Both the position numbers and the translations under genes were made by a program. Below the pieces are notes generated by a model that searched no databases, was not told the origin of the DNA, and saw nothing but the letters and a program-made list of their open reading frames with translations. Below, piece by piece: positions 12,191 to 15,193 of a stretch of 64,000 bases of DNA. Source of the stretch: Blattabacterium cuenoti (GTDB lineage: Bacteria; Bacteroidota; Bacteroidia; Flavobacteriales; Blattabacteriaceae); the NCBI RefSeq assembly GCF_014251315.1, contig NZ_CP059185.1:267017-331016 (forward strand). Reading direction: 5' to 3'. Position 1 is the stretch's first letter, and each line of letters starts with the position of its first letter.

Positions 12191-12205
12191 ACTATTGTGA
12201 ATAGT
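12191..12205. promoter_or_regulatory. Inverted repeat between the phosphopantetheinyl transferase gene and mrp
   Basis: ACTATT-GTG-AATAGT is a perfect 6-bp inverted repeat with a 3-base spacer in the 76-bp divergent intergenic region, just after a TTTTTTTG run at 12182-12189. It could be an operator or a chance AT-rich repeat. No -7 box with good spacing to the TTTTG was found. Confidence 0.2.
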
Positions 12206-12226
12206 ATTATTATATACGATATATGT

Positions 12227-13237
12227 ATGAAGAAAAAAATTGAAAAAGCATTAGAAAAAGTGATTTTTATTGATAATAAAAATATTGTAGAATCTGGTTT
12301 AGTCAAAAAGATAGATTTATTAAGTAATGAAATCATAATCTATTTGAGTTTATCAAATCCTGCTATGCATCTAAAAAATAGATTAATAAAAGAGATAACT
12401 CATTCTATAAAAAATCAAAATATTTTAGATACAATACGTATAAAAATGGAAATAAAATCAGATACAAAAACGAAATCTGTAATAAAAAATATAATTGCTA
12501 TAGCTTCTGGAAAAGGAGGAGTAGGAAAATCTACAATAGCAACAAATATAGCTGTATCTTTAGTTAAAATGGGTTTTCATGTTGGATTATTAGATGCGGA
12601 TATTTATGGTCCTTCTATTCCATTAATGTTTAATATTGAAGAAAAATCTGTAAATTTTCAACATAAAAATGGAATGATGAATCCTATTACTAGTTATGGA
12701 GTTAAAATTCTATCTATAGGTTTTTTTTCAAAATATGGACAAGCTATTGTTTGGAGAGGGCCCATGGTTACTAAAGTTTTGAGACAATTTATGCATGAAA
12801 CTAATTGGGGAAAATTAGATTTTTTAATTGTAGATTTACCACCAGGAACAGGGGATATTCATTTATCTCTTTTGCAAGAAATTTCATTAAAAGGAATTGT
12901 TATAGTAAGTACATCTCAAAAGATAGCCTTATCGGATGTCAATCGTTCTGTAGGAATGTTTCGTATTAGATCAATTTCTGTTCCTATACTTGGAATTATA
13001 GAAAATATGTCTTATGTTTTTTCAAAAAAAACTAAAGAAAAATGCTATTTTTTTGGAAAAAATGGAGTAAGAAATTTTTCCAAAAAAATGAATATTTTTT
13101 TTCTTGGCGAAATTCCTATGTTACAAAAAATACGGGAATATTCAGATTTAGGAATTCCTGTTATTTTAGAGAACGAGCATATTAGAAATATCTTTCTAAA
13201 AATTACGGAAAATATTATTCATAAATTGCAATTATAA
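12227..13237 (+). CDS. mrp: Mrp/ApbC-family Fe-S cluster carrier P-loop ATPase
   Basis: Cytoplasmic ATPase that in related bacteria carries Fe-S clusters to target proteins. The N-terminal about 90 residues resemble the MIP18/DUF59 domain. The deviant Walker A GKGGVGKST follows (about 99-107), then LDADIYGPSIPLMF and the Walker B-like DFLIVDLPPGTGD. The C-terminal CxxC pair of E. coli Mrp is absent; the equivalent stretch ENMSYVFSKKTKEKCYFFG has one Cys, which as I recall is normal for Bacteroidetes homologues. I chose ATG 12227 over GTG 12197, which would add ten poorly conserved residues. The stop is 2 bases from the convergent phosphorylase gene. Confidence 0.9.
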   Translation: MKKKIEKALEKVIFIDNKNIVESGLVKKIDLLSNEIIIYLSLSNPAMHLKNRLIKEITHSIKNQNILDTIRIKMEIKSDTKTKSVIKNIIAIASGKGGVGKSTIATNIAVSLVKMGFHVGLLDADIYGPSIPLMFNIEEKSVNFQHKNGMMNPITSYGVKILSIGFFSKYGQAIVWRGPMVTKVLRQFMHETNWGKLDFLIVDLPPGTGDIHLSLLQEISLKGIVIVSTSQKIALSDVNRSVGMFRIRSISVPILGIIENMSYVFSKKTKEKCYFFGKNGVRNFSKKMNIFFLGEIPMLQKIREYSDLGIPVILENEHIRNIFLKITENIIHKLQL

Positions 13238-13239
13238 AA

Positions 13240-14058
13240 CTATAAACAAAGTTTGATAAATTCTTTTACTATTAATATGAGAAGAGATATAGATTTTTCT
13301 GTTTCTTGATGAAATGGCTTAAAGAAATTGATTTCATCGTAATTATATCCCTTACCCTTATCTTTAGATTGTTCATATAATCCCATAACAATGGATATAG
13401 CAAATACTCGTAAATTTATACATCTAGCTGTGATGACATCTGTTACTATATTCATACCTACACTATCCCCACCCATAGATCGTATCATAGCATATTCTGC
13501 ATAAGTTTTATAATTAGGATAAGGAGAAGCGACATATATCCCTTTTTGAATAATAATATTATGATTCATTGCAATGTTTTCTGCAATTTCTATCATTTTT
13601 TTATCATATGGTTCTGTAATTTTAAAAAATTTATTTTTTATAAATTCTTTTATATTAGGACTTTCCGGAAAAAAGTTAATATGATCTTTAACCAACATAA
13701 CATCTCCCATTTTGTAGTTTGGATTTACACCCCCAGAAATATTTATTAAAATTAATTTATCTATTCCTAGATTCTTACACAAAACAATGGAGAAATGATT
13801 TGTTCTATTTTCTTCAGAATTAGGTTCGGTTAAAAGAACCACATTTTTATCTTCTATTTTACCGAAAAAAAATTTTCCATATAAATTTTTTTTTGAAAAA
13901 AGGGGGATTTCTTCATAAGAAATACATATAGGATTTTTTATCTCCTCTATCAGTTTATTGAATTGATTTCCTAATAATAAAATTCCAAAATCAGGTTTTT
14001 CTTTAATTTTGTTTTGTATGTATTGTTTTGATTTTTCTAAACTCATAGTCATTGACAT
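13240..14058 (-). CDS. Purine nucleoside phosphorylase homologue with a degenerate active site
   Basis: The 272-residue protein follows the trimeric inosine/guanosine phosphorylase fold from end to end. Retained: ISGGVNPNYKMGDVMLVKDHINFFPE (middle), GIYVASPYPNYKTYAEY and MGGDSVGMN (C-terminal half). Missing, compared with the family as I know it: the phosphate-binding GSGLG loop reads GNQFN (about residue 30); the His of EGHSG is absent; the GRFHYYEGY block, which carries the phosphate-binding Arg and catalytic Glu, reads TEPNSEENRTNH; and the Asn/Asp after the final beta strand is replaced in AISIVMG. The frame is intact. It is either a protein with another role or a gene losing function. 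A TACCTTTG box lies at 14127-14134 upstream. Confidence 0.75.
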   Translation of the reverse strand: MSMTMSLEKSKQYIQNKIKEKPDFGILLLGNQFNKLIEEIKNPICISYEEIPLFSKKNLYGKFFFGKIEDKNVVLLTEPNSEENRTNHFSIVLCKNLGIDKLILINISGGVNPNYKMGDVMLVKDHINFFPESPNIKEFIKNKFFKITEPYDKKMIEIAENIAMNHNIIIQKGIYVASPYPNYKTYAEYAMIRSMGGDSVGMNIVTDVITARCINLRVFAISIVMGLYEQSKDKGKGYNYDEINFFKPFHQETEKSISLLILIVKEFIKLCL

Positions 14059-14176: not shown

Positions 14177-15193
14177 TTATTGTATGACATTTACTTCTCT
14201 TGATAAAGGAATACCAAATTTTTTTTTTATATTTTTCATTATTTTTTCTGAAAAAGAATATATTTCCATTCCAGTAGCTTTTCCATAGTTTACTAAAATA
14301 ATAGGTTTTTTTTCATACATTCCTACGTTTCCAATTTTTTTTTCTTTCCATTTTATATTTTCAATTAATGAATTAGCAGATAGCTTGACTTTATGATTAG
14401 AAATATTATAACCTATAATAGCGGGATGTTGATATTTTAGTTTTTTAAAATCTAAAATACCTACTATAGGATTTATAAAAAAACTACCAGCATTTCCAAT
14501 TTTTTTAGGATTTGGAAGTTTTCTATGTCTAATATTAAAAATCGCCTGACTTAAATTGTTAATAGTAGGCATTTTAATATTCATATTTTCTAATTCTTTT
14601 TGAATTTCCACATAAGATGTATTTAATTCTTTATATTTTTTTTTTAGAAGAAAAAAAACAGACAAAATCATAAATTTATTTCCAGAATGCTTAAAAAAAG
14701 AATAACGATATTTGAGTTGACATTCTTCACGTGTAAATTCTCTTATTTTTCTATTATCTATTTCATATGCTTGTACTTTCATTAAAGTATCTTTGACTTC
14801 TGCTCCATATGCTCCAATATTTTGAATCGGTGCAGCTCCAACTGTACCAGGAATAAATGATAAATTTTCTAAACCACTAAATCCTTTTTTGATCGTCCAG
14901 TTTACGAATTCATCCCAATTTTCTCCAGCACAAGCTTTAACGATGACTTGATAATTATTTTCTTGAATAACTTTCTTTCCTTTTATTCCCATTTTTATTA
15001 TTAGTCCCGGATAATAATTTTTTAAAAAAAGAATATTACTTCCGTTTCCCAAAAAAAGTTTTGAAATTGATGGATATCTATCAAAAATTTTTTTAATTTC
15101 TTCTATACTTTTCACTTCTACAAAATAACGAGCATAAACATTTATTCCAAATGTATTGAATTTTTTTAGAGAAAAGTCTTTTTTAATGAACAT
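14177..15193 (-). CDS. murB: MurB, UDP-N-acetylenolpyruvoylglucosamine reductase
   Basis: FAD- and NADPH-dependent reductase making UDP-MurNAc. Its 338 residues show the N-terminal FNTFGINVYARYFVEV, FLGNGSNILF (about 46-55), GLENLSFIPGTVGAAPIQNIGAYGAE (FAD domain), YRYSFFK (with the catalytic-region Tyr), and KIGNAGSFFINPIV containing the catalytic Ser of the family. The C-terminal LVNYGKATGMEIYSFSE also matches. It is remote from the dcw cluster. The ATG at 15193 faces ytxH, with an 85-bp divergent gap carrying the ytxH promoter candidate. Confidence 0.95.
   Translation of the reverse strand: MFIKKDFSLKKFNTFGINVYARYFVEVKSIEEIKKIFDRYPSISKLFLGNGSNILFLKNYYPGLIIKMGIKGKKVIQENNYQVIVKACAGENWDEFVNWTIKKGFSGLENLSFIPGTVGAAPIQNIGAYGAEVKDTLMKVQAYEIDNRKIREFTREECQLKYRYSFFKHSGNKFMILSVFFLLKKKYKELNTSYVEIQKELENMNIKMPTINNLSQAIFNIRHRKLPNPKKIGNAGSFFINPIVGILDFKKLKYQHPAIIGYNISNHKVKLSANSLIENIKWKEKKIGNVGMYEKKPIILVNYGKATGMEIYSFSEKIMKNIKKKFGIPLSREVNVIQ

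Follow-up and report, generated by a model that had tools for sequence, protein, structure and literature searches.

A purine nucleoside phosphorylase homologue that has lost conserved active-site residues, probably kept as a pseudoenzyme in most Blattabacterium genomes

In the usual account of genome reduction a function is lost and the gene follows it. Blattabacterium, whose association with cockroaches is estimated at more than 200 million years (PMC9603385) and whose genomes measure about 0.6 Mb, carries a gene that apparently departs from this account: across the genus it seems to have outlived the reaction of its product. The gene lies in a window of 64,000 nucleotides of the Blattabacterium cuenoti chromosome and encodes a homologue of purine nucleoside phosphorylase (PNP), and the question it raises is what keeps such a protein in place once the residues for phosphorolysis are gone. 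The gene and its two neighbours are:

13240..14058, minus strand: the pnp homologue, a putative PNP-fold pseudoenzyme gene (272 aa, ATG start), identified by profile matches and predicted fold
14177..15193, minus strand: murB (TIGR00179, 200.4 bits, cut-off 144.5), upstream and on the same strand
12197..13237, plus strand: an mrp/apbC-like gene for an iron-sulfur carrier ATPase (303.5 bits against Pfam PF10609, with NCBIfam equivalogs short of their cut-offs), the convergent neighbour

The 272-aa protein matched Pfam PNP_UDP_1 at 6.2e-31. Against the NCBIfam models of trimeric PNP (PNP I; EC 2.4.2.1) it scored 173.6 bits (NF006054, cut-off 218 bits) and 157.8 bits (TIGR01700, cut-off 293.35 bits), short of both thresholds, whereas the control, the PNP gene of a 1.3 Mb relative (G053), reached 370.3 and 334.9 bits. 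The NF006054 cut-off was exceeded in 105 of the 196 genomes of the order, and every Blattabacterium protein among the matches listed fell under it. Models for MTAP and MTIP gave at most 53.4 bits, with cut-offs of at least 223. The closest solved sequence was itself a PNP (8swt, 3.1e-37), homology to the trimeric enzyme ran over nearly the whole length, and an AF2 model (pLDDT 87.7, pTM 0.88) matched PNP 4lna best in the PDB (Z 32.2, rmsd 2.2 over 257 residues), so that the entire chain is predicted to adopt a nucleoside phosphorylase fold. A first-pass annotation of this DNA had recognised a PNP homologue with a conserved fold and proposed structural modelling as a check, and the model bears it out. 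That the protein might be the dead partner of a live paralogue is ruled out, since it is the sole PNP_UDP_1 protein of its genome.

As reference for the active site we took the 23 positions listed in section 4.3 of PMC9916683, and compared 41 Blattabacterium copies with 31 intact PNPs (that of G053 and the 30 best-scoring loci of the order). At 11 of the 23 listed positions no Blattabacterium copy held the residue of G053, and eight of these 11 (His64, Arg84, His86, Ala116, Glu201, Ser220, Asp/Asn243 and His257), invariant in 31/31 intact PNPs, retained the ancestral residue in 0/41 copies. The altered segments of the window gene are:

13957..13971, minus strand: GNQFN, residues 30–34, the former phosphate loop GSGLG (alignment of the 41 copies)
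13876..13899, minus strand: FSKKNLYG, residues 54–61, the loop that formerly bore active-site His64 (Gly-His columns deleted in 41/41)
13795..13830, minus strand: TEPNSEENRTNH, residues 77–88, in place of GRFHYYEGY
13729..13746, minus strand: INISGG, residues 105–110, from SNASGG (Asn kept in 41/41, Ser to Ile in 40/41, Ala116 kept in 0/41)
13507..13509, minus strand: the codon of Lys184, which stands where purine-recognising Glu201 was (alignment of the 41 copies)
13378..13395, minus strand: SIVMGL, residues 222–227, from SIITDLG (Asp/Asn243 column kept in 0/41, with a gap in 36; Thr242 in 2/41)

Phosphate, ribose and base contacts were all affected. At the group that we take to be the phosphate site (Ser33, Arg84, His86 and Ser220, with His64), only the Ser33 place retained its residue in any copy (Ser in 14/41, Asn in the window); a one-residue insertion (L28, 39/41 copies) precedes GNQFN, and the Leu35 position was Phe in 40/41. 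Both residues of the purine site, Glu201 and Asn/Asp243, were gone throughout, the place of Glu201 being taken by Lys in 39 copies, Arg in one and Asn in one. In the ribose site His257 was kept in 0/41, Tyr88 in 25/41 (Ser in the window) and Met219 in 32/41; the columns of His257 and Asn243 lie near indels and the His257 stretch is poorly aligned, so these two assignments are less sure. The positions of Glu89, Tyr192, Gly118-119 and Met219 were mostly kept (32–40/41).

The first-pass annotation had thus read the phosphate loop correctly, as well as the loss of a phosphate-contacting His (both His64 and His86 are gone) and of the base-recognising Asn/Asp. It had also taken the GRFHYYEGY block to be replaced together with its Arg and the catalytic Glu; the block and Arg84 are indeed lost, but loss of the Glu is doubtful, as Glu82 of the window protein aligns with Glu89 and is Glu in 37/41 copies, in a shortened loop where the alignment is soft. 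The loss of Glu201 had escaped it.

The pattern is not a chance one, since it is common to 41 genomes, whereas the RxHxYEG motif was present in 75 of the 76 non-Blattabacterium loci among 80 retained loci (the exception, L134, has a frame of only 77 aa). When active-site segments were delimited by our own choice, 3/30 of their PNP-invariant columns were kept, against 14/32 elsewhere (p = 0.004); by the published list only, the contrast was not significant (2/18 against 15/44, p = 0.11; Mann-Whitney p = 0.09).

Homologues were found in 41 of 49 Blattabacterium genomes, and the main frame was open in all 41, as had been noted for the window; a single TAA counted in G044 and another in G027 each lie before the start used. 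murB neighboured the gene in all 41 loci. In the remaining eight genomes murB and mrp lie side by side, 40–224 bp apart in seven and 653–654 bp apart in G014, whose spacer (L047 848–1500) is rich in stops. Only this spacer gave matches to pnp under E 0.05 (0.005–0.035, 13–28 residues), too weak to call a remnant. The fewest state changes on a murB+mrp tree numbered three, so the gene was lost at least three times among the 49 genomes; the tree was a quick one with a single long-branched outgroup. Since eight of 49 genomes lack the gene, its role is not essential everywhere and is dispensable in some lineages. In one of the 41 loci, that of G041, a base next to an A-rich tract near the pnp start has been deleted, so that the usual ATG is no longer in frame (L031 565–610), which could reflect transcriptional slippage, use of another start, decay or sequencing error.

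Among 19 other genomes of the family a match was found only in G053, where murB, lpxK and PNP stand in a row and where the PNP, over both cut-offs, has all its motifs intact (GSGLG, GRFHYYEG, NASGG, GPTFETPAE, GMSTVPE, SIITDLG and SHKEV). Because this intact gene sits beside murB-lpxK and the Blattabacterium gene directly after murB, the two are most simply read as positional orthologues. Motifs and score together suggest that the common ancestor was active, and the active site would most simply have been lost on the Blattabacterium stem, once the lineage had parted from that of G053 but with the sampled strains not yet separate. The lpxK gene, which in G053 lies between murB and pnp (L051 2013–3993), is absent from the corresponding place in the window.

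Selection on the gene was examined in 22 of the 780 possible pairs among 40 taxa, those with the highest pnp nucleotide identity; the pairs overlap, and L011 was excluded for a stop in its mrp translation, which lies upstream of the start. In these pairs pnp omega was 0.090–0.218 (likelihood ratio against omega = 1, 19.6–74.3), compared with 0.088–0.291 for murB and 0.046–0.154 for mrp, so that purifying selection on the pnp homologue is about as strong as on murB, and mrp is the more constrained in most pairs. Among 28 taxa (L011 and L026 omitted) mean differences at codon positions 1, 2 and 3 were 0.136, 0.084 and 0.277, with murB and mrp alike, and tree lengths were 4.75 for pnp, 3.57 for murB and 4.93 for mrp. 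When neutral substitution was simulated from the window gene as a chance control, 0.6% of frames were still open at a distance of 0.09 substitutions per site, and 0/4000 at each of 0.15, 0.2, 0.25 and 0.5. A pseudogene would be expected to show a broken frame or omega near 1, and apart from the displaced start in G041 neither was seen. The first-pass annotation had suggested dN/dS across strains as a test, with relaxed values and stop codons in sister strains as the adverse outcome; this did not materialise, bar the G041 start and the eight genomes without the gene. The early decay it had allowed for is rejected, because the altered site is in all 41 copies, dN/dS is low and neutral frames rarely or never stay open.

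Nor does the constraint appear to lie in the nucleic acid. No extra synonymous conservation was found over codons 160–174; the 15-codon window from codon 160 had the lowest synonymous conservation among the windows listed for the gene. Since this stretch is among the most conserved in the protein, the constraint acts on the protein, and the idea that DNA or RNA is what is kept, refuted in the main by the synonymous data and by the concentration of changes at third codon positions, is barely conceivable.

Where the protein is conserved, it is in part along segments that have been rewritten:

13675..13686, minus strand: DHIN, residues 125–128 (kept in 41/41; Asn128 corresponds to calf Asn137 of the trimer interface cluster)
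13534..13608, minus strand: residues 151–175 (YD..M..AENIAMNHNIIIQKG.Y), one of the parts best conserved across the genus
13495..13524, minus strand: PYPNYKTYAE, residues 179–188, the rewritten base-recognition and interface segment, from QGPxFETxAE (alignment of the 41 copies)

In the last of these, Tyr180, Tyr183, Thr185 and Glu188 were found in 41/41 copies and Lys184 in 39/41. At columns invariant in intact PNPs, a new residue fixed in at least 39/41 copies occurred at 5/30 positions in the active-site segments of our choice and 0/32 elsewhere (Phe33, Glu78, Ile105, Tyr180 and Lys184, of which the list in PMC9916683 includes only Lys184). Asn106, Tyr180, Tyr183 and Thr185 fall in the slowest ~11% of site rates, and Lys184, at percentile 0.36, is constrained without being among the slowest; the old places of Ser33, Arg84, His86, Pro198, Gly118 and His257 lie at percentiles 0.75–0.90. 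The interface positions Asn137 and Glu205, named in PMC9916683, were kept in 41/41 copies and Phe159 in 35/41. The main interface loop (calf 141–168; window ~130–153) varies among the copies and the contact at Met87 has been lost, which makes it unsure that the protein forms a trimer.

The metabolic setting offers a reason why the reaction might have become dispensable. No Blattabacterium genome of the 49 reached the cut-off for HGPRT (TIGR01203). Each had a match of 23–32 bits over ~50 positions inside an ORF of 311–385 aa, presumably PRPP synthase, and four had a second, of ~18 bits, in ORFs of 463–469 aa. Neither apt nor ahcY reached its cut-off in the eight genomes searched (seven Blattabacterium and G053), so Blattabacterium seems to have neither salvage of purine bases nor AhcY to hydrolyse SAH. 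The bases that a PNP released would therefore be without evident use. IMPDH was over cut-off in 49/49 genomes, and loss of pnp is thus not tied to loss of guanine nucleotide synthesis.

We consider it likely, with a probability of about 0.62, that the protein is a pseudoenzyme across the genus, its reaction having lost its use and its scaffold having been retained to bind something. On this reading the Blattabacterium ancestor would have carried a normal PNP of the trimer type, encoded in a murB-lpxK-pnp run like that of present-day G053; on the stem, with HGPRT gone and nothing else to use hypoxanthine or guanine, the reaction would have lost its purpose; contacts to phosphate, ribose and base would then have been lost, and the folded protein would have stayed, still held by selection. 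It appears to descend from an active enzyme, it lacks conserved residues of the active site, and from these losses we infer that the window protein does not carry out phosphorolysis. It might bind a small ligand, anionic or resembling a purine, at the pocket floor as now rewritten (Tyr180, Tyr183, Lys184, Asn106 and Thr185), or a protein partner on residues 106–128, 151–175 and 179–198, if these form one face.

Besides early decay, the first-pass annotation had proposed binding or a different reaction, and both of these remain, binding being the likelier. An enzyme with a new substrate and a new site around Tyr180, Tyr183 and Lys184, with Glu82, Asn106, Glu188 or His126, seems unlikely, though these polar residues are kept at 37–41/41, all five switched-and-fixed positions lie in active-site segments, and selection is roughly as strong as that on murB. 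Binding is favoured because the contacts to phosphate, to the base and to ribose (His257 and often Tyr88) disappeared jointly while PYxNYKT was fixed in place of QGPxFET; such a site would suit neither a phosphorylase nor, by what we take to be the nucleosidase residues, an enzyme of the MTAN kind, and the MTAP and MTIP scores lie far under their cut-offs. That the protein is still a PNP, weakly active through a phosphate site that has been rearranged, is very improbable: seven residues from Arg84 and His64 to Ser220 and His257 are each kept in 0/41 copies, and its product would meet no HGPRT over cut-off in any of the 49 genomes. In its favour are the predicted intact fold, the mostly kept positions such as Glu89 and Tyr192, and the presence among solved matches of human PNP mutants, by title H257F/D/G and E201Q+N243D, which indicate that the fold tolerates such changes.

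Slow decay under relaxed selection, with the gene on its way out, would account for the repeated losses, for the short or stop-rich gaps that remain (40–224 bp in seven genomes, 654 bp in the eighth), for the G041 deletion and for a pnp tree longer than that of murB. The mrp tree is as long, however, and open frames in every copy at an omega of 0.09–0.22 would hardly persist where neutral simulation leaves so few, making this course rather improbable. Against the pseudoenzyme reading itself stand the eight genomes without the gene, the doubtful trimer, the non-significant contrast by the published list, the middling site rate of Lys184, the probable retention of Glu89 and the stronger constraint on mrp.

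Pseudoenzymes in general are enzyme homologues that no longer catalyse but persist because they bind or regulate, and the present protein shares with them active-site loss, a retained fold and purifying selection; it differs in having no live PNP_UDP_1 paralogue in its genome and in its setting, a symbiont genome of 0.63 Mb. Plant storage and wound proteins of the PNP_UDP fold have probably likewise retained a nucleoside phosphorylase fold for a role outside catalysis; they belong to a different subfamily and setting. Trimeric PNPs (4lna, 8swt, 4ns1) share its fold and the two interface positions, but they lack its insertion before the phosphate loop, its deletions at the His64, His86 and Asn243 loops and its Lys for Glu201. 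The main texts of PMC9603385, PMC3287516 and PMC6039017 do not contain the terms purine, nucleoside or punA, and no mention of a Blattabacterium PNP or PNP pseudoenzyme was found in the open-licence literature searched. If the binding reading is true, metabolic models that credit Blattabacterium with a PNP by homology alone are wrong, and a single purified protein would be enough to start looking for the function that selection still protects; as natural knock-outs, the eight genomes lacking the gene offer a comparison.

One ligand may be named as a long shot. Glu201 hydrogen-bonds the purine base, and its change to Lys, with two new tyrosines beside it, is a charge reversal. This, together with the setting, hints that before the sampled strains diverged the purine pocket could have turned into a site that binds an anionic purine, for instance urate or a purine nucleotide, in which case the protein would sense or buffer the purine waste that the cockroach fat body stores beside the bacteria.

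SAH disposal may be a gap in the metabolism described here, with ahcY at 0/8 and no second PNP_UDP_1 protein in the genome of the window. A role for the protein in it, as an MTAN, was rated low: G006 and G014 have neither this gene nor ahcY, and the Asp/Asn243 column is gone. In G053, HGPRT was over its cut-off narrowly (150.8 against 150 bits, nearly full length), and an apt match falls into two short, overlapping pieces that both contain a stop (G053:C4:20624–20883), perhaps a broken adenine phosphoribosyltransferase.
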